From Pseudoclavibacter triregionum (lineage in GTDB: Bacteria > Actinomycetota > Actinomycetes > Actinomycetales > Microbacteriaceae), in assembly GCA_910822395.1 (NCBI GenBank), contig OU365335.1:1674001-1738000 (forward strand): a stretch of 64,000 bases of DNA, written 5' to 3'. Made by a program: the position numbers and the translations under genes. The stretch's first letter is position 1; the number at the start of each line of letters is the position of its first letter. Below, one piece after another: positions 14,638-23,574 of the stretch. The notes under the pieces were generated by a model. It had not been told where the DNA came from, ran no database searches, and saw only the letters and a program-made list of their open reading frames with translations.

Positions 14638-15512
14638 CCGCGATCGGGATCGCGCTCGCGGCGACGATGGGCGCGGGCGTCTGGCTGCTCGCGGGGCCCC
14701 GCCCTCAGCGCGACGACGCGGCAGACGGCCGCCGCTCGGCGCCGGTGCGCCTCCTCGACCGGGCGCGCGGCGAGCTCACGCGCGCGGGGCTCGATCGCGT
14801 GCCGCCGACGATGATCGTCGTCACCGCGCTGCTCGTCGCCGTCCTCGTCGGGGCGCTCGCGTACGGTGCCACCGGGGTGCCGCTGCTCGCCCTCCTCGCG
14901 GCGGCCGCGGGGCTCGTGGCCCCGGCGCTCCTCATCGGGTGGCGGGCCGCCCAGCGTCGCGCCGCGAACCGGCTCGTGTGGCCGGACGCCGTCGACCACC
15001 TCGTCTCCGCCGTCCGCGCGGGCCTCTCCCTGCCCGAGGCGGTGGCGGCCCTCGCGGAGACCGGCCCCGAGGCGACCCGCCCCGAGTTCGCCGCCTTCGC
15101 CGCCACGTACCGCCGCACGGGCGCCTTCCGCGTCGCCCTCGACGAGCTCAAGGGCCGCCTCGCCGACCCCACCGCCGACCGGATCATCGAGACCCTGCGC
15201 CTCTCGCGCGAGGTCGGCGGCGCGGAGCTCGCGACGATTCTGCGGAGCCTCGCGGTGTACCTGCGCGAGGAGCAGGCCATCCGCCACGAGGTCGAGGCGC
15301 GCCAGTCGTGGGTCATGAACGCCGCCAGGCTCGGCGTCGCGGCGCCGTGGGTCGTGCTCGTGCTCCTCGCCACGCGCCCGGAGGCGGGCCGCGCCTACGA
15401 CACCCCGGAGGGCTCGGCGCTCATCCTCGCCGGCCTCGCCGTGACCGCGCTCGCGTACGCGATCATGCGCCGCATCGGCCGGCTCCGCGATGATCGGCGG
15501 TGGTTCGCGTGA
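14634..15512 (+). CDS. tadB: Tad pilus inner-membrane platform protein TadB
   Basis: 292 residues. Two N-terminal helices, then the type II secretion F-like domain (WPDAVDHLVSAVRAGLSLPEAVAAL ... VGGAELATILRSLAVYLREEQAIR) and two C-terminal helices. It would form the platform that couples ATPase motion to pilin insertion, with TadC as partner. It overlaps tadA by ATGA and tadC by GTGA. Confidence 0.9.
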   Translation: MTAIGIALAATMGAGVWLLAGPRPQRDDAADGRRSAPVRLLDRARGELTRAGLDRVPPTMIVVTALLVAVLVGALAYGATGVPLLALLAAAAGLVAPALLIGWRAAQRRAANRLVWPDAVDHLVSAVRAGLSLPEAVAALAETGPEATRPEFAAFAATYRRTGAFRVALDELKGRLADPTADRIIETLRLSREVGGAELATILRSLAVYLREEQAIRHEVEARQSWVMNAARLGVAAPWVVLVLLATRPEAGRAYDTPEGSALILAGLAVTALAYAIMRRIGRLRDDRRWFA

Positions 15513-16450
15513 GCGCCTCGATGTGGGGATGGGGCGCCGCCTTCGGCATCCTCCTCGGGCTCGGCCTGTGGTCGATGCTCATGGCCGTGCCCGCGCTCTC
15601 GCGGCCGAGGCTCGTCGACCGCGTCGCGCCGCTCGTCGTGGACGTCTCGGAGGCGGCGCGCGAGCAGGTCGCTCGGCGCTCGCGGGATCCGCTGCCGATC
15701 CTCGGCACGCTCCTCGCGCCCCTCGTCGCCGCCGGTCAGCGGCTCATCGGCGAGGTGCTCGGCGGCGAGCAGACGATCGCGCTGCGCCTGCGTCAGGCCG
15801 GGTCCCGGCTCTCGGTCGAGGGCTTCCGCGGCGAGCAGGCGCTCTGGGGCCTCGCGGGGCTCGCGGGCGGGATCGCCGTGAGCGTCGCCGCCGGCGTCTC
15901 GCGGGGATCTGTGGCCCCGGCCCAGCTCGCGCTGCCGATCATCGCGGCGGCGAGCGGGGTGCTCCTGCGCGACTGGCTCCTGAGGGAGGCGGCGCGGGCG
16001 CGGATCCGGCGCATCGCGAGCGAGCTGCCGACCGTGCTCGAGTTCCTCACGCTCTCCCTGTCGGCCGGCGAGGGCATCCACGACTCGCTCCGCCGGGTCG
16101 CGCGGGTGTCGAGCGGCGAGCTCTCCGCTGAGCTCGCGCGGGCCGTGTCGCGAGCCTCCGCGGGCGTGCCGCTCTCGACGGCGCTGGGAGATCTCGGCCG
16201 TGAGCTCGGGCACCTCCCGCTCGAGCGCTGCCTCGATCACCTCATCGCCGCGCTCGATCGGGGCGCGCCGATCGTCGAGGTGCTTCGCGCGCAGGCCCGG
16301 GACGCCCGGGATCTCTCGAAGCGAGAGCTGCTCGAGTCGGCGGGGCGGAAGGAGATCCTCATGATGCTCCCGCTCGTCTTCCTGATCCTGCCGACGACCG
16401 TCGCCTTCGCCGTCTTCCCGGGGGTCTGGGTGCTGCAGACCTCGTTCTGA
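15509..16450 (+). CDS. tadC: Tad pilus inner-membrane platform protein TadC
   Basis: 313 residues from the GTG at 15509, which overlaps the tadB stop as GTGA; an in-frame GTG at 15500 is also possible. The F-like domain ELPTVLEFLTLSLSAGEGIHDSLRRVA is present near the middle and the C-terminus ends with a hydrophobic helix (IPLVFLILPTTVAFAVFPG-like). It pairs with TadB. Confidence 0.9.
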   Translation: MSASMWGWGAAFGILLGLGLWSMLMAVPALSRPRLVDRVAPLVVDVSEAAREQVARRSRDPLPILGTLLAPLVAAGQRLIGEVLGGEQTIALRLRQAGSRLSVEGFRGEQALWGLAGLAGGIAVSVAAGVSRGSVAPAQLALPIIAAASGVLLRDWLLREAARARIRRIASELPTVLEFLTLSLSAGEGIHDSLRRVARVSSGELSAELARAVSRASAGVPLSTALGDLGRELGHLPLERCLDHLIAALDRGAPIVEVLRAQARDARDLSKRELLESAGRKEILMMLPLVFLILPTTVAFAVFPGVWVLQTSF

Positions 16451-16548
16451 GCGCCGCGCCCGACCCGCACTCGACCCTGACCTCACGCCCTCCCGCACCC
16501 AGCCACCAGACCCGCGCCCGAGCGGCGCCCGCCAGACAGGAGACCGCC

Positions 16549-16779
16549 ATGCCCGCCGCCCTCGCCTTCCTCGCCGCCCTGCTCGGCGAGCTCGCCGACC
16601 GCCTCCGCGGCGCCGTCGCGCCGCTCGGCCGCCGCCTCGCATCCGAGCGCGGCGACGTCCCGGGCTGGGTGCTCATCACGATCATGACCGCGGGCCTCGT
16701 CATCCTGCTCTGGACCGTCGCGGGCGACCTCCTCGTGCAGGTCTTCACCGATGCGATCTCGCGCGTCAGCTCGCGCTAG
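16549..16779 (+). CDS. Small Flp-pilin-like membrane protein
   Basis: 76 residues with a CAGGAG site before ATG 16549. A basic N-terminal half precedes SERGDVPGWVLITIMTAGLVILLW, a single hydrophobic segment with a Gly/Asp-rich lead typical of the small actinobacterial Flp-type pilins. It would be the main pilus subunit. No prepilin peptidase is encoded in the window. Confidence 0.7.
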   Translation: MPAALAFLAALLGELADRLRGAVAPLGRRLASERGDVPGWVLITIMTAGLVILLWTVAGDLLVQVFTDAISRVSSR

Positions 16780-17194
16780 CCGGGCCTCGGGCGGCGCGAG
16801 CTCGCGCCTGCGCCGCCTGCTCGCGGATGACCGGGGCTCCGCCGCCGTCGACTGGGCGCTCGTCTCGGGCCTGCTCACGCTGCTCTTCCTCACCGTGCTC
16901 CAGCTCGGCTTCGCGCTCTACGTCCGCAATGTCGCCATCGACGCGGCCGCCGAGGGCGCCCGGCACGCCGGCCTCGCCGGGTCGAGCCTCGCGGCGGGGG
17001 AGGAGCGCGCCCGCGAGATCCTCTCGACCGCGCTCTCGCCCGACTACGCGGGCGGCGTGACGGCCTCGCAGACGAGCTACCTGGGCCGCCCCGCCATCGA
17101 GGTCCGCGTCGTCGCGCCGCTCCCGCTGCTCGGGCTCGCCGGGCTCCCGGATGCCCTGGAGGTGACCGGCCATGCGCCCCTTGAGACGCTCTGA
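16751..17194 (+). CDS. TadE-like minor pilin
   Basis: 147 residues; ATG 16751 overlaps the end of the pilin-like gene by 29 bases. The motif DDRGSAAVDWALVSGLLTLLFLTVLQLGFALYVRN is the TadE helix, followed by the conserved AAEGARHAGLAG. The remainder is an extracytoplasmic beta-rich domain. It would be a pseudopilin that initiates or modifies the pilus. Confidence 0.8.
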   Translation: MRSRASARASRASGGASSRLRRLLADDRGSAAVDWALVSGLLTLLFLTVLQLGFALYVRNVAIDAAAEGARHAGLAGSSLAAGEERAREILSTALSPDYAGGVTASQTSYLGRPAIEVRVVAPLPLLGLAGLPDALEVTGHAPLETL

Positions 17195-17681
17195 GCGGAT
17201 GCTCTCCGCCACCCTCCGCCTCGCCCGTCGGCTCGGGCGCCGGGTGGCCCGGGAGGACGGCTCCGCGAGCCTCGAGTTCCTCACCCTGGGCGTCCTGCTG
17301 CTCGTCCCGCTCGCCTACCTCGCGGTGTGCCTCGCGAGCATCCAGTCGGCGGCGCTCGCGGCCGAGGGCGCCGCCAGGCATGCGGGCCGGATCCTCGCCG
17401 ACGGCGCCGCGAGCGAGGAGGCGATCGTCGAGGCCGAGGCCGCCATCGCCTTCGCGCTCGCCGACCACGGCTTCGGGCTCGAGGACGCCGAGGTCGAGCT
17501 CGGATGCCTGCCCGCCGGCTCCCGCTGCACCGCCGCGAGCGAGCTCGTCGCCGTGGAGGTGACCGTCCACGCGCCGCTCCCGTTCATCCCGGACGGCTTC
17601 GACCTCGCCGGCCGCGCGACGATCCCGGTCTCCGCGACCTCGAGCTTCCCGATGGGCCGCTTCGACGGGGGCGCGCCGTGA
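17172..17681 (+). CDS. TadE/TadF-like minor pilin
   Basis: 169 residues, overlapping the previous gene by 23 bases with GGAGG about ten bases before the ATG. EDGSASLEFLTLGVLLLVPLAYLAVCLASIQ is the N-terminal pseudopilin helix, followed by AAEGAARHAGRI. Two Cys residues (LGCLPAGSRC) could form a disulfide outside the cell. It is the second of two TadE-type proteins in the operon. Confidence 0.78.
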   Translation: MRPLRRSERMLSATLRLARRLGRRVAREDGSASLEFLTLGVLLLVPLAYLAVCLASIQSAALAAEGAARHAGRILADGAASEEAIVEAEAAIAFALADHGFGLEDAEVELGCLPAGSRCTAASELVAVEVTVHAPLPFIPDGFDLAGRATIPVSATSSFPMGRFDGGAP

Positions 17682-18232: not shown

Positions 18233-18907
18233 CTACAGGTCGACGATCCGGTCCCACACCTTCTGACCGGTGGCGAAGACGGCGCTCGATTCGCCCACCG
18301 AGAGGTGGAGCGTTCCCGTCATGTTCGGGTCGGCGTTCGGCCAGGAGTAGACCGTGCGGCCATCCGACTCGGTCTTCGTGACGCCCGCCTGGCCCTCGGC
18401 CCACGCGCGCAGCGTGTCGGCCTGGCCGGCGCCGTACGTCGCGTAGCCGTACTGCACGGCCCACTCCGACTGCGGCGTGCCGATGAGGCAGGTGACGGGA
18501 TCGCCGCCGACCGCCTCGCGGAAGCCCGATCCGTAGTGGAGGCCGCCCTCGCCGACCGCCGGGCCGTAGTGCGTGGTCACGTTGTCCGGCTGCGGCGACA
18601 GGTCCGTCGCGGGGCGGCCGCCGACGAGGTCGATGCACACCTGGGCCGGGTCGCCCGAGAAGTCGAGGCCCGAGGCGGATGCCGTCGACCCCGTCGCCTC
18701 GGCGGGCGTCTCGCCCGCGGCGGGCGACTCAGACGACGATCCCGACGTGACCGAGGTGGACGTCGCCCCCGAGCCCTCCGTCGACGGCGCGGTCGGGGCC
18801 GCCGTCGGCCCGCCGCTCGCGCAGGAGGCGAGGAACAGCACGCCCGCCGTCGCGCAGAGCGCGCCAGCGAGCCGCGCGGACAGGAAGCCGGAGACGGTCG
18901 AGATCAT
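18233..18907 (-). CDS. Lipoprotein of unknown function
   Basis: 224 residues. ATG 18907 is preferred over ATG 18913 because GAGGGG is six bases before it but directly abuts the other. A signal peptide ends in the lipobox LASC; a Ser/Thr/Glu linker follows; the mature domain (about residues 80-224) has a Cys pair (VCIDL and VTCLIG) and ends VWDRIVDL. I do not recognise the family. It converges with the tad operon and is downstream of the gshB operon on the same strand, but separated by a terminator. Confidence 0.75.
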   Translation of the reverse strand: MISTVSGFLSARLAGALCATAGVLFLASCASGGPTAAPTAPSTEGSGATSTSVTSGSSSESPAAGETPAEATGSTASASGLDFSGDPAQVCIDLVGGRPATDLSPQPDNVTTHYGPAVGEGGLHYGSGFREAVGGDPVTCLIGTPQSEWAVQYGYATYGAGQADTLRAWAEGQAGVTKTESDGRTVYSWPNADPNMTGTLHLSVGESSAVFATGQKVWDRIVDL

Positions 18908-19026
18908 CGTCATCCCCTCATCGTCGGGCCGTCCCCTCGAGGCCCTGCGTCACCTCCACCGTAGAAGTCCCCAGGCTCCGCGGAGCGCTTCGTTGCCTCG
19001 CCGTGACGACGATCATCACGAGGGAG

Positions 19027-19062
19027 CAGAGGCCCCTCATCCCGGGGGATGAGGGGCCTCTG
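19027..19062. terminator. Strong terminator after gshB-type gene
   Basis: Perfect 16-bp stem CAGAGGCCCCTCATCC / GGATGAGGGGCCTCTG with loop CGGG, 45 bases past the stop of the ATP-grasp gene. Confidence 0.85.
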
Positions 19063-19107
19063 ACCAGGGCATCCGCGCGCCGCCGAAGCGCGCCCGGACC
19101 GCCCTCG

Positions 19108-20151
19108 CTACACCGTCGCGAGCGTCGTGTTCGGGATGCCCTCCGGGTAGTGCCTCCGCACGTCGACCTTCCGCTCGAGGTCGCGGATGACGGCCTCCGC
19201 GAAGTTCGCCTCGTAGAGCGTCTGCGCCGAGCCGAGGCCGCCGGGGGAGAAGACGTTCACCTCCATGAGCTTGTCGCCGACGATGTCGAGGCCGACGAGG
19301 AACATGCCGTCCGCGATGAGCTTCGGGCGCACGGCCGCGACGAGCTCGAGCATCTCGTCGGTCACGGTCGCCGGCACGATCTTGCCGCCGGCCGAGACGT
19401 TCGAGCGCATGTCGGAGCCCGAGGACTGGCGGCGGAAGGCCGCGTACTTGCCGTCCACGGCGAGCGGAGTGCCGTTCATGACGAACATTCGCACGTCGCC
19501 GTCCTTCGCGCGCGGCAGGTACTCCTGCGTCACGACGTAGCCGTCGCGGGCGATCGCCTCGACGATCTGCTTGCGGTTCGGCGACTCCTTGTCGTTGACG
19601 AGGAAGACGCCCGAGCCGCCCGAGCCCTGGAGGGGCTTGAGCACGGCCTTGCCGCCGAGCTCGTCGACGAAGTCGGCGATCTGCTGCTCGTCGCGCGAGA
19701 TGAGCGTGCGCGGGCGCACGATCTCCGGGAAGTGCTGGAAGTACGCCTTCGAGAGCGCATTCGAGAGCGTGAACGGGTCGTTCACGACGAGCACGCCCGC
19801 ACGGGCGAAGAGCTGGCCGAAGGCGACGACGGCCTGGTTCGCCCAGGGCGCCTCGGTCGCGTCGTCCGCCGGGTCGGCCCGGAGCATGACGACGTCGAAC
19901 TCGCCGATCGGGATGCGCTGCTCGGCGTCGGGCTTCTGCACGTCGGCGAGGTAGCGATCGAGCGAGCGGTACGTCTTGCCGGACGCCTGGCGCGCGCGGG
20001 CGCTGAGCGAGCCGTCGGCCTCGTAGGCGAAGTCGCCGATGCCCATGAGCCACGCGTCGTGGCCCATCGACTTCGCCTGCATCGCGAGGCGGGTCGTGGT
20101 GTAGCCGGACTGCTCGGTGAGGACGTCGTTGACGACGAATCCGATCTTCAT
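19108..20151 (-). CDS. gshB: Glutathione synthetase-type ATP-grasp ligase
   Basis: 347 residues with AGGAG seven bases before ATG 20151. The sequence follows bacterial GshB throughout: KIGFVVNDVL at the start, FDVVMLRADPADD, AVLKPLQGSGGSGVFLV (ATP-binding loop), YLPRAKDGDVRMFVMNG, SNVSAGGK and FLVGLDIVGDKLMEVNV (metal-binding Asp/Glu/Asn). GshB joins gamma-glutamylcysteine to glycine. Actinobacteria normally use mycothiol, no gshA-like gene is present here, and this gene ends an operon with a DUF1704 peptidase and an amidohydrolase. A different acceptor or amino acid is therefore possible. Confidence 0.85.
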   Translation of the reverse strand: MKIGFVVNDVLTEQSGYTTTRLAMQAKSMGHDAWLMGIGDFAYEADGSLSARARQASGKTYRSLDRYLADVQKPDAEQRIPIGEFDVVMLRADPADDATEAPWANQAVVAFGQLFARAGVLVVNDPFTLSNALSKAYFQHFPEIVRPRTLISRDEQQIADFVDELGGKAVLKPLQGSGGSGVFLVNDKESPNRKQIVEAIARDGYVVTQEYLPRAKDGDVRMFVMNGTPLAVDGKYAAFRRQSSGSDMRSNVSAGGKIVPATVTDEMLELVAAVRPKLIADGMFLVGLDIVGDKLMEVNVFSPGGLGSAQTLYEANFAEAVIRDLERKVDVRRHYPEGIPNTTLATV

Positions 20152-20228
20152 GCGGAGCTCCTGATGTTGGAGAGGGGGAAGGGGAAAGGAAAGCGGTGGG
20201 AAGACTGGGCGGGCCGGCCGGTGCCGGA

Positions 20229-21443
20229 TCACTCCGACTCGGCGGTCTCCGGGGCATCGGGCGCGAGCACCTCGGCGAGGCACTCGGCGCGGGCCGCGTG
20301 GACGAGCCGCTCGGCGGCGTGCTCCTCGTCGAGCCAGCGGGGGCGGAGGAGGACGGGCGCGAGCAGGCCGCGCGACTCGAGCTCGGCGATCCGGCCCTCG
20401 TCGGCGAGCGAGAACTTGCCGCGGAAGAGCAGCTCGAGGCTCTCGCCGGCGCGCACCTTCTCGAGGAGGGCGAGGACGCCTCGCAGGTAGCTGGCGTCCT
20501 TCGGGAGCCCGCCCGAGCGGAAGACGCGCATCGTCGTCGTGAAGGCCGAGCCCACGCCGAAGCCCGCGCTCGTGAGGGCCCCGTAGCACTCGCCGAAGCT
20601 GCGGCCGGCGAGCATCCGGTCGACGGTGAGCACGCGGGCGGCGAGCTGGCGCAGGCGGGATGCCGTGAGCTGGCCGCACGCGATCTCCGCGAGCACGGCG
20701 AGGCCCTCCTGGGTCTCGTCGTAGCCGGCGAGCCCCGCCCCGAGGCACTTCACGGCCTGCGTCGAGCCGTTCACCTGCGTGACGAGGTGGGTGCCGATCT
20801 CGTGCTGGATGAGCGCGTTCGCGCGCGCCTCCTGCACCTGGGCTCTCGGGCCGATGAGGAGGGTGTCGCCGGAGACCATGACGCCGTTCACGCCGTCGCG
20901 GATCTCCGCGTGCATGGCGACGTCGGGCTGCTGCTCCTTGTACGCGTCGATCTCGGCGTTGGCGAGCTCGAGGAAGGCCTGCGCATCGAGCGCGGGGCCG
21001 GACTTCGCGGGCCGCGGGACGCGAGCCATGAGCTCCTCGGCCCGTTCGCGGAGCTCGTCGTCGACGCCGCCGTAGAGCTCGACCGCGAGCTCGCGGAACT
21101 CCTCCGTCTCGCGGCAGCCGAGCATGCGCACCTGCAGGCCGAGCTCGCGGCGCTTCTCCTCGAGGACGGCGCGGAGGGTGTCGTCCTCGACCTGCTCGAC
21201 CGGCACTCGGGCGACGCGGTGGGCGAGGATCTCGGGCGAGGTCTCCGGGTCGCGGTACGCGAAGGCGGGCGGCACGGCGCGGTCGCCGAGGAACCCGTCG
21301 CGGGCGGCCTGCGCGTCGATCGGCGTGACCTCGAGGATGAAGTCGATCCCGCTCGCGAGCTGCATGAGCTCGTGGTCGACGGAGAGGTCGGCCGGGGAGA
21401 GGTGCGGCGCCGCGGCCTCGGCCGCCGCCGCGCCCGGGCTCAT
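20229..21443 (-). CDS. DUF1704 'QEGLA-motif' metallopeptidase-like protein
   Basis: 404 residues; its ATG overlaps the stop of the preceding amidohydrolase gene as ATGA. The zinc motif HEIGTH lies at residues 214-219 and the naming motif QEGLA at 245-249, whose Glu fits the third metal ligand. An LLIGPRAQV segment precedes them. This family has been annotated as flavohemoglobin expression-modulating; its eukaryotic relatives (MATCAP/TMCP) are HExxxH carboxypeptidases that remove the C-terminal Tyr of tubulin. The bacterial substrate is unknown. Its genomic neighbour is an ATP-grasp ligase. Confidence 0.88.
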   Translation of the reverse strand: MSPGAAAAEAAAPHLSPADLSVDHELMQLASGIDFILEVTPIDAQAARDGFLGDRAVPPAFAYRDPETSPEILAHRVARVPVEQVEDDTLRAVLEEKRRELGLQVRMLGCRETEEFRELAVELYGGVDDELRERAEELMARVPRPAKSGPALDAQAFLELANAEIDAYKEQQPDVAMHAEIRDGVNGVMVSGDTLLIGPRAQVQEARANALIQHEIGTHLVTQVNGSTQAVKCLGAGLAGYDETQEGLAVLAEIACGQLTASRLRQLAARVLTVDRMLAGRSFGECYGALTSAGFGVGSAFTTTMRVFRSGGLPKDASYLRGVLALLEKVRAGESLELLFRGKFSLADEGRIAELESRGLLAPVLLRPRWLDEEHAAERLVHAARAECLAEVLAPDAPETAESE

Positions 21444-22324
21444 GCCCCGCGCGCCCGGTCGCGGGCGCGGGCCTGGCGGGCGACGGGCTCGAGCGTCGCC
21501 TCGAGGGCGGCGGCGAGCTCGCCGATCCGCGTCTCGTCGGGCACGCCCGTCCACTCGTCCATGAAGGTCTTCTTGAACTCGAGCGCGAGGCAGCAGCCCG
21601 TGTCGGGGTAGGTCTCGTGCACCCACTTCGCGAGGTTCGCGCCCTGGAAGCGCACGTTCTCGCGCGCGTCGATCGGCTCGCCGGCGACGCGGCCGGACGA
21701 CATCGAGCGGAGGAAGACGTCGACGACGTCGCCCCAGCGCTCGCGGTCGAGGGATCCCGTGCCGACGTTGACGTCCGGGTTCTCGGACTGCGGCGCGGCG
21801 TCGGCCTCGGCGCCGTCGCGGCGGTGGTTGTACGAGTGGAGGTCGTAGAGCACGAAGGGGCCGCGGGCCGCGATCGGGTCGAGAAGCTCCCTGAGCTTCG
21901 CGTAGAAGGCGTCGTGCTCCTCGCGGCTGCGCTCGGCGATCTCGGGGTCGAGGGGCGACTCGTGCCAGACCTCGAGACCCCAGCACTCCTCCGGCGTCCG
22001 GTAGACGGAGCCGTCGCGGTCGCGGTTGAGGTCGACCTCGAAGCGCGACCGGCGGAGGTCGACGCGGTTCGGCACGCGCGCGCCGATGCGCTCGGTGAAG
22101 GGATCCTCCTCGCGGAAGCGCACGTCCTCGTCGAGCGCCATGGCCTCGGCGACCTCCTCGCGGAGCTCGTGGCCCGTGTGGATCGCGGTCGCCACGACGA
22201 CGGCGTCCTCGCCCCACGCGCCCACGACCTCGAAGCACGGCGCGCTCGCCGGGACGACGCCGCCGAGGGAGGGCGCGGGCGTCGCCGCGTCGCCGGAGCG
22301 GCTGGTCTGCTGGTCTTCGGACAT
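21440..22324 (-). CDS. N-formylglutamate amidohydrolase family protein
   Basis: 294 residues from ATG 22324; an in-frame ATG at 22342 is less likely because the -10-like GAGCCT lies just before 22324. HTGHE near residue 48, PNRVDLRRSRFEVDLNRDRDG, FVLYDLHSYNHRR and CCLALEFKKTFMDEW follow the HutG/FGase-like amidohydrolase family. The known reaction is release of formate from N-formylglutamate in histidine breakdown, but no hut genes are present, so the substrate here may differ. It is the first gene of the three-gene operon. Confidence 0.82.
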   Translation of the reverse strand: MSEDQQTSRSGDAATPAPSLGGVVPASAPCFEVVGAWGEDAVVVATAIHTGHELREEVAEAMALDEDVRFREEDPFTERIGARVPNRVDLRRSRFEVDLNRDRDGSVYRTPEECWGLEVWHESPLDPEIAERSREEHDAFYAKLRELLDPIAARGPFVLYDLHSYNHRRDGAEADAAPQSENPDVNVGTGSLDRERWGDVVDVFLRSMSSGRVAGEPIDARENVRFQGANLAKWVHETYPDTGCCLALEFKKTFMDEWTGVPDETRIGELAAALEATLEPVARQARARDRARGA

Positions 22325-22330
22325 GCCCCC

Positions 22331-22336
22331 AGGCTC
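22331..22336 (-). promoter_or_regulatory. -10-like hexamer GAGCCT of amidohydrolase/DUF1704/gshB operon
   Basis: On the reverse strand GAGCCT is followed by six bases and ATG 22324. It differs from the TAGCCT used elsewhere in the window at the first base, so the call is weaker. Confidence 0.4.
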
Positions 22337-22440
22337 GCGCATGCCACCGCCGCGACCGGTGGGGGCCCCTGGGCGGGCGCTGGAGAGGGCCTGGGAGGCG
22401 GTGATCGCCCTGTCGGGGCCGGACGCCGATCTGGGCCGAG

Positions 22441-22446
22441 TACCCT
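22441..22446 (+). promoter_or_regulatory. -10 hexamer TACCCT of prfB
   Basis: TACCCT lies 9 nt before ATG 22456; no ribosome-binding site is present. Confidence 0.55.
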
Positions 22447-22455
22447 GAACGGATC

Positions 22456-23574
22456 ATGATGCCTCTCGACCTCAGCGCCGACATCCAGGCTCTCCGGGCC
22501 ACCTTCGGCGACATCTCGGCCGTGCTCGACCCGGAGAAGCTCCGCGCCGACGTGGAGCGGCTGGAGGCCGAGGCGTCCGCCCCCGACCTCTGGGACGACC
22601 CCGAGCGCGCCCAGGGCGTCACCTCGCGGCTCAGCCATGCGCAGGCGGACCTCAAGCGTCTCGAGTCCGTCGAGTCGCGCCTCGACGACCTCGAGGTGCT
22701 CGTCGACATGGCGAACGAGGGCGACGACGAGGACACCGCCGCCGAGGCGCGCGCCGAGCTCGAGGCCATCCGCAAGGTCATCGGCGACCTCGAGGTGCAG
22801 ACGCTCCTCGACGGCGAGTTCGATCCGCGCCCGGCCGTGGTGACGATCCGCGCCGGCGCCGGCGGCGACGACGCCACCGACTTCGCCGAGATGCTCTTCC
22901 GCATGTACGTGCGGTGGGCCGAGCAGCACGAGTACAAGGTGTCCGTGCTCGACACGAGCTACGCCGACCACGGCGTGAAGTCGGCCTCCTTCGAGGTCGA
23001 CGCGCCCTACGCCTTCGGCACGCTCTCGGTCGAGGCCGGCACGCACCGGCTCGTGCGCATGAGCCCCTTCAACTCGGCCGGATCGCGCGAGACGAGCTTC
23101 GCGGCCGTCGAGGTCGTGCCGCTGCTCGAGCAGACCGAGTCGATCGAGGTGCCGGAGTCGGACATCCGCGTCGACGTCTACCGCTCGTCCGGCCCCGGCG
23201 GGCAGTCGGTGAACACGACCGACTCGGCCGTGCGCATCACGCACCTCCCGACCGGGATCGTCGTGAGCTGCCAGAACGAGAAGTCGCAGATCCAGAACCG
23301 CGCCGCCGCGATGCGCGTCCTCCAGTCGCGCCTGCTCCTGCAGCGCCGCGAGGAGGAGAACGCGAAGAAGAAGGAGCTCGCGGGCAACATCACCGCGAGC
23401 TGGGGCGACCAGATGCGCTCGTACGTGCTCGCGCCGTACAAGATGGTGAAGGACCTCCGCTCGAGCTACGAGACCGGCAACCCGGATCGCGTGTTCGACG
23501 GCGACCTCGACGGCTTCATCGCTGCCGGCATCCGCTGGCGAAAGCAGCAGCAGGCCGAGGCCGCCGCGAGCTAG
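22456..23574 (+). CDS. prfB: Peptide chain release factor 2
   Basis: 372 residues in one uninterrupted frame. The stop-codon-reading tripeptide SPF ([12 protein letters not shown]) marks RF2, and GPGGQSVN is the catalytic GGQ loop. It terminates translation at UGA and UAA. The programmed +1 frameshift found in many bacteria is absent, as in actinobacteria generally. Two ATG codons are adjacent (22456 and 22459). It precedes ftsEX and smpB, the usual actinobacterial order. Confidence 0.97.

Follow-up and report, generated by a model that had tools for sequence, protein, structure and literature searches.

We analyzed a stretch of 64,000 nucleotides from Pseudoclavibacter triregionum (contig OU365335.1, positions 1,674,001 to 1,738,000; hereafter the window), in which an operon codes for an N-formylglutamate amidohydrolase (FGase)-fold protein, a DUF1704/MATCAP-type metallocarboxypeptidase and an ATP-grasp amide ligase. 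The three genes represent one inherited, widely conserved module and not a chance neighbourhood. As to its function, we give roughly even chances to the reading that it is a peptide-making and peptide-trimming module, for which an osmotic or ionic role is the lead. The annotated records consulted label the genes 'flavohemoglobin expression-modulating QEGLA motif protein' and 'N-formylglutamate amidohydrolase'. Such labels (flavohemoglobin, N-formylglutamate, glutathione synthetase) leave the joint inheritance of the three genes unexplained, and no description of the operon was found in the literature searched.

Amidohydrolase, peptidase and ligase genes are inherited together

A preliminary description of this DNA had proposed searching for DUF1704 neighbourhoods with ATP-grasp genes across genomes. 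We ran this search on genome contigs, with seven aligned operon-type peptidases as the query, and obtained at least 525 stretches encoding a relative; the best 79 loci, selected by the peptidase alone, were read. The ligase gene lies on the same strand at most 1 kb downstream of the peptidase gene in 75 of the 79 loci by script (76/79 if the peptidase copy of L103 that has the ligase is counted in place of the second copy picked by the script). The FGase gene is found at most 1.9 kb upstream of the peptidase gene in 70 loci, and both partners are present in 68. In 56 of the 75 loci the start of the ligase gene overlaps the stop of the peptidase gene, while the window has a 77-nt spacer instead. 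The ligase was missed in L079 (frame broken), L101 (contig end) and L093 (none found). The FGase was missed in L061 and L102 (near contig starts), in L103 (second copy taken by the script), in L083, L084 and L090, where the counted peptidase copy sits behind another that does have an FGase upstream, in L104 (divergent FGase-ligase pair), and in L091 and L093. The same contig occurs twice among the loci in two cases (L024/L066 and L025/L074).

Genome-wide comparisons agree with these counts. Among 246 genomes of the phylum, five have a ligase match above 300 bits; these are five of the six genomes with an HExGxH-type peptidase, and the genes are adjacent. For the sixth (G154, locus L023), neither partner was found within the 12 kb read. 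Among 150 pseudomonadote genomes, seven of the eight operon-type peptidase copies adjoin a ligase (the exception is L220). Conversely, seven of the nine PF02955 matches of 140–190 bits in Pseudomonadota adjoin an operon-type peptidase, the other two being G553:C443 (with one TAG) and G633:C6. Protein distances among FGase, peptidase and ligase are correlated (r ~0.91) over the 74 loci with a single ligase and a single peptidase.

By record title, the 79 loci belong to Actinomycetota, Planctomycetota, Poribacteria, Calditrichota, Bacteroidota, Verrucomicrobiota, Chloroflexota, Acidobacteriota, Pseudomonadota and Campylobacterota, and beyond Actinomycetota they come mostly from metagenome-assembled genomes (MAGs). 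The peptidase of L070, titled Acidobacteria, is 53% identical to that of the window, like those of Actinomycetota, and its contig is possibly misbinned. In Sinorhizobium meliloti, all three genes were found on pSymB of strain ml59, and the peptidase of strain 2011 is encoded on NC_020560.1.

The operon in the window

The features of the operon, all on the minus strand, are as follows.

21440–22342, minus: gene 1, FGase-fold amidohydrolase (PF05013, 79.9 bits), 300 aa
20229–21443, minus: gene 2, DUF1704/MATCAP-type metallocarboxypeptidase (PF08014, 250.5 bits), 404 aa
20697–20804, minus: peptidase zinc-site codons (HEIGTH 20787–20804, QEGLA 20697–20711), aligned with human MATCAP 7z5g
20152–20228, minus: 77-nt spacer between the peptidase and ligase genes
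19108–20151, minus: gene 3, ATP-grasp amide ligase (NF009110/PRK12458 clade, GshB fold family), 347 aa
19027–19062, minus: GC-rich inverted repeat of 16 pairs, terminator-like, 3' of the ligase gene

The preliminary description had reported three co-directional genes, the first two joined by ATGA, and had named their families. All of this holds: the genes share the minus strand, genes 1 and 2 overlap by 4 nt (ATGA), the family assignments agree with the matches to PF05013, PF08014 and PF02955/PF02951, and both HEIGTH and QEGLA were located. Its promoter-like hexamer did not reappear, as a consensus scan found no sigma-70-type promoter site in 18900–22600. Its strong terminator survives in part: the hairpin 3' of the ligase gene is strong (−37.3 kcal/mol, z −3.76, equalled by 0 of 200 shuffles), but 19027–19062 has no T-run and a terminator scan of the region lists none.

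The peptidase retains the MATCAP active site

The window peptidase exceeds by far the cut-off of PF08014 (27 bits), a family now named MATCAP in Pfam. Against TIGR02421, the model of the QEGLA protein, it scores 273.2 bits, below the cut-off of 338.65, compared with 336.9 for L092 and 448 for Photobacterium L109. HEIGTH occupies residues 214–219 and QEGLA residues 245–249. Residues H214, E215, H219, E246, R306, K315, D316 and Y319 are identical in human MATCAP and in all 107 aligned peptidase rows (105 distinct, both bacterial types, window included), and a modelled relative of the window peptidase has the MATCAP fold. E215 and E246 align with E281 and E316 of human TMCP1, both of which are required for activity (PMC10499314). 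The same paper states that human TMCP1/2 and the Tetrahymena enzyme remove glutamates too. Since enzymes of the MATCAP family are thus not confined to Tyr, this residue is not implied for the bacterial peptidase. The kinship with MATCAP put forward in the preliminary description is therefore upheld by the zinc site and by the fold of the modelled relative, but the family is not Tyr-only.

Twelve operon-type and twelve stand-alone bacterial peptidases form two clades with full support (100/100). The human MATCAP stretch fits the operon-type profile better than the stand-alone one (46.5 versus 27.1 bits, 12 sequences each); in the peptidase tree the human row has a long branch (3.47) and a weakly supported placement (54/38). 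The second bacterial clade is characterized by HE-[AGV]-x-x-H and TQEGLA (L015, L016, L017, L019 and L224–L230), and neither ligase nor FGase was found in these loci. By score, 10 of the 15 PF08014 genomes in one pseudomonadote sample appear to belong to it; six were read as regions. The L023 peptidase, with HEVGTH and with ETEEGLA replacing QEGLA, may be a third type.

The amidohydrolase is an equal part of the module

The window FGase matches the PF05013 superfamily profile and has its fold, yet it scores only 19.1 bits against the HutG model TIGR02017 (cut-off 278.75). Four records contain FGase-DUF1704 fusion proteins (L109:7050-9047, L235:5995-7983, L108:7125-9116 and L075:5161-7149). Its fusion to the peptidase in these records puts the FGase on a par with the other two members of the module. 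The earlier reading had assigned it no role. In addition, long DUF1704 proteins (L092:5242-5961 and 17 relatives) carry an extra N-terminal FGase-fold domain without conserved catalytic residues, perhaps a pseudoenzyme. Taken together, the fusions and this additional FGase-like domain of the peptidase suggest that both hydrolases operate as a single complex.

The L108 fusion, from Vibrio sp. HDW18, has DMYAYN where D-H-S/T-Y occurs elsewhere and thus lacks the His of the FGase; a ligase did not turn up in the 17 kb that were read. It is possibly a decayed or changed form.

The ligase differs from canonical glutathione synthetases

The window ligase matches the GshB domains PF02955/PF02951, and no other protein of its genome (completeness estimated at 90%) matches PF02955 at E ≤ 0.001. 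It passes the cut-off of NF009110 (PRK12458, 'glutathione synthetase') with 442.9 bits against 408; L021 and L022 stay below it (349.8 and 363.4 bits). It fails both GshB equivalog cut-offs (TIGR01380, 178.4 versus 299.05; PRK05246, 195.8 versus 272) as well as that of the RimK family (TIGR00768, 86.3 versus 143.4). Two Photobacterium ligases do pass PRK05246, with 284.6 and 291.7 bits. The GshB-type ligase of the preliminary description is thus confirmed at the level of domains, yet it is not a standard GshB by either cut-offs or residues.

The residues were compared between 36 ligases of the clade (35 distinct) and the 30 top-scoring pseudomonadote GshBs, using E. coli numbering. ATP and metal residues are retained in the 36 clade ligases. 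In contrast, T288, invariant in the GshBs, is G in 36/36 clade ligases, and the likewise invariant T285 is F in 32. A23 (90% in GshBs) is R in 33 and D19 (93%) is Y in 32 of the 36. P90 and R120, also invariant in GshBs, are replaced in the clade, P90 nearly throughout, as is D9 (90–93%).

The supply of a glutathione precursor was considered next to these differences. No match to gamma-glutamylcysteine ligase (PF04107, PF04262) was found in 13 of the 30 peptidase genomes, or in 12 of 29 once G550, whose locus L093 has no ligase, is excluded; judged by their titles, two of these 13 genomes come from isolates, and the rest are MAGs that may be incomplete. In the window genome, the only GCS2 match (PF04107; L014:1261-2520) is YbdK-type (TIGR02050, 271 bits) and PF04262 was not found. 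Four pseudomonadote genomes have a TIGR01436 GshA and no PF02955 match stronger than the operon copies. Of 110 pseudomonadote gshA genomes, 67 have no canonical GshB, and the operon occurs in 4 of these 67 compared with 0 of the other 43 (p 0.15).

Given the failed GshB cut-offs, the differences at GshB-invariant positions and the 13 of 30 genomes without gamma-glutamylcysteine ligase, 'glutathione synthetase' is doubtful as a general name for the ligase. Judging from these comparisons, glutathione is an unlikely general product, but a possible one in some lineages.

Several loci have two or three ATP-grasp genes (L082:7146-10387, L083:3112-8219, L084, L088, L090, L094, L100, L103 and L104). 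The multiple ligases of planctomycete and a few other loci fall in separate supported clades, as would be expected if there were several ligation steps or substrates. In L021/L136 (G032:C3), one ligase copy has a TAG inside the matched stretch.

A lead towards salt and ion balance

In Photobacterium damselae, two genes with consecutive tags, annotated as GshB (RS17020) and QEGLA protein (RS17025), are up 38.42- and 27.51-fold, respectively, at 1% versus 3% NaCl, and RimK is up 52.24-fold (PMC10308900). Initial inspection of loci had revealed genes for SLC12, MscS, MgtE, a Na/H exchanger and diadenylate cyclase nearby. Among 13 further non-actinobacterial loci, MscS, MgtE or SLC12 genes adjoin four (L081, L088, L095 and L106; 6 genes among 58 open reading frames, ORFs). 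None was found among 191 ORFs of 32 control regions; the resulting p values (0.005 by locus, 0.0001 by ORF) are optimistic, as some loci are related to ones inspected earlier and the controls are unmatched. An earlier tally of 5/18 included loci already inspected (L104 among them), which the 13-locus tally leaves out. Because of the low-salt rise in P. damselae and the ion genes beside 4 of 13 loci, the operon may be tied to osmotic, salt or ion balance. In L082 (10384-11343; a Phycisphaerae MAG), a diadenylate-cyclase-domain protein directly follows three ligases.

The flank sample for Pfam comprised 97 of 116 ORFs from 22 loci. The 19 dropped ORFs belong to L093 (all 9), L104 (3), L094 (2) and L096 (its only one), with one each from L087, L097, L099 and L101. 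L084 and L090 were excluded as near-copies of L083, and flanking ORFs longer than 1400 aa were skipped. Controls were taken from the same genome set as contig starts, many of them short; their Pfam sample covered 191 of 223 ORFs and 32 of 40 regions, with 29 open-ended pieces and three short complete ORFs excluded. For the controls, the absence of MscS, MgtE and SLC12 comes from phmmer searches that used six flank proteins; the Pfam control tables hold the 25 commonest families only.

Genomic context and origin

The host genome (2.36 Mb) consists of one contig. The neighbours of the operon on the opposite strand are prfB, ftsE, ftsX and smpB, named by eye from translations. Farther away, at 15500–17681, three plus-strand ORFs look Flp/Tad pilus-like by eye; no search was made. 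PF08014 is scarce near the host: it occurs in 4 of 299 genomes sampled from the family and in 10 of 246 sampled from the phylum. The family sample includes five further genomes of the genus, none of which has a match. In the ligase tree, the window ligase groups with a Tessaracoccus (98/97), apart from other family members. Since the five congeneric genomes also lack the peptidase, the operon was probably acquired by horizontal transfer.

Comparison with known systems

The tubulin tyrosination cycle (MATCAP/TMCP with TTL) has the same peptidase family, fold and zinc site, and an ATP-grasp enzyme as partner. It differs in that the bacterial module has no tubulin, its ligase belongs to the GshB branch, and the FGase is a regular third member; TTL represents another ATP-grasp branch. 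Canonical GshB shares the fold family and the ATP and metal residues with the window ligase, which differs by both cut-offs, by conserved residues and by its fixed peptidase and FGase partners.

The RimK-RimB and RloC-RloA systems are likewise bacterial operons that pair an ATP-grasp protein with a peptidase. RimK, whose family cut-off the window ligase fails, modifies a ribosomal protein tail, and in the P. aeruginosa Rlo system deletion of the ATP-grasp gene rescues deletion of the peptidase gene, the phenotype being sensitivity to low osmolarity (PMC12239564). The Rim/Rlo peptidase is retropepsin-like aspartic, and in Rlo secreted, whereas the module described here has two metallo-hydrolases. 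Rlo is the best precedent for an add/remove pair.

The NAGGN trio (TIGR03103/03104/03106), a small operon with an ATP-grasp ligase and a hydrolase whose product is an osmolyte dipeptide, consists of families other than those of the FGase-DUF1704-ligase operon; one tandem ligase matches TIGR03103 weakly (E 0.005). NAGGN is made at high, not low, osmolarity.

A possible mechanism and its alternatives

FGase, peptidase and ligase would act as one inherited module, presumably in the cytoplasm. Because of its family and kept residues, the ligase is expected to use ATP to activate a small peptide or amino-acid derivative at a carboxylate and to join an amino acid to it by an amide bond; GshB and RimK act likewise. 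Because the MATCAP active site is kept, the DUF1704 enzyme would then take the C-terminal residue off the ligase product or a related peptide. More tentatively, the FGase, which has the fold of M14 carboxypeptidases, might hydrolyse an amide bond, N-acyl or otherwise, in that same compound. A small free peptide is the most likely substrate, rather than a protein tail, because the characterized relatives of FGase and GshB have small molecules as substrates. Probably, the module tunes the amount of this peptide to ionic or osmotic conditions. The originally proposed pair that adds and removes an amino acid is supported in part: the linkage of DUF1704 and ligase is old and tight, the peptidase keeps the MATCAP zinc site, and the ligase departs from standard GshBs in both curated cut-offs and conserved residues.

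Several observations weigh against the peptide-making and peptide-trimming module or its ionic lead. Enzymes of one operon can share a pathway without opposing each other, and the substrate does not follow from sequence. L093, L023 and L220 have an HExxxH peptidase and no ligase nearby. The Photobacterium ligase is ~30% identical to that of the window, sits on a long branch with GshB in a midpoint-drawn tree and passes one GshB cut-off. That RS17020 and RS17025 of P. damselae are operon genes is inferred from their consecutive tags and from the matching gene order of two other Photobacterium records. The test of the ion-gene neighbourhood came only after the pattern had been noticed; such genes were not seen beside the window operon (flanked by prfB, ftsE, ftsX and smpB) or the S. 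meliloti operon, and the Na/H exchanger and diadenylate cyclase did not recur in later tallies. Finally, formylglutamate, QEGLA, flavohemoglobin and ATP-grasp are absent from the main text of a salinity proteome of three other marine bacteria (PMC8775919).

A more ambitious version, which we regard as unlikely in its entirety, is a peptide add/remove cycle in which the ligase lengthens and a complex of the MATCAP-type peptidase and FGase shortens a peptide whose level signals or offsets changes in ions and osmolarity, perhaps by gating neighbouring channels and transporters; the animal and alveolate tubulin detyrosinases would then trace back to the peptidase of a module of this kind. Gating of this kind is known from E. 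coli, where glutathione gates Kef channels. Glutathione itself, or another gamma-glutamyl thiol, ranks next, and we consider it improbable that the ligase is a true glutathione synthetase whose tripeptide both hydrolases turn over. The clade name in NCBIfam, the two Photobacterium ligases passing PRK05246 and the four genomes with GshA and no PF02955 match above the operon copies speak for it. Yet 13/30 peptidase genomes (12/29 without G550) have no PF04107 or PF04262 match, the sole GCS2 match of the window genome is YbdK-type, T288, T285, A23 and D19 are replaced, the argument from GshB gaps is weak (4/67 versus 0/43), and two or three distinct ligases per locus are ill-suited to one tripeptide. 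Glutathione synthesis, which the preliminary description had set against its own proposal, is weakened as an alternative but keeps some likelihood.

Modification of a protein tail, with the ligase adding an amino acid to a protein C-terminus and the DUF1704 enzyme removing it as in the tyrosination cycle, seems quite unlikely. The closest characterized relative, MATCAP, does trim the C-termini of proteins and depends on the same pair of glutamates (E281 and E316; PMC10499314), the human stretch fits the operon-type profile better, and RimK offers a precedent on a ribosomal protein (PMC12239564). However, no gene for a third-party protein was seen as a regular operon member, the FGase is left without a role, the ligase is GshB-like whereas TTL is of another branch, and the human row is long-branched and weakly placed. 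Tyrosine as the residue and a protein tail as the substrate are no more than possible. The least probable of the alternatives is scavenging, in which FGase and DUF1704 degrade peptides or N-acyl amino acids, a product of which is salvaged by the ligase, with no cycle. Hydrolases make up two of the three genes and a known member of the FGase family, HutG, serves in histidine degradation, but the ligase is kept as tightly as the hydrolases, with overlapping starts in 56/75 loci, and a transporter was not seen as a regular member inside the operon.

A ligase accompanies these bacterial relatives of a human enzyme that acts on tubulin tails, which makes the original chemistry of the family testable in a bacterium. 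Glutathione labels, if wrong, would mislead studies of thiol metabolism.

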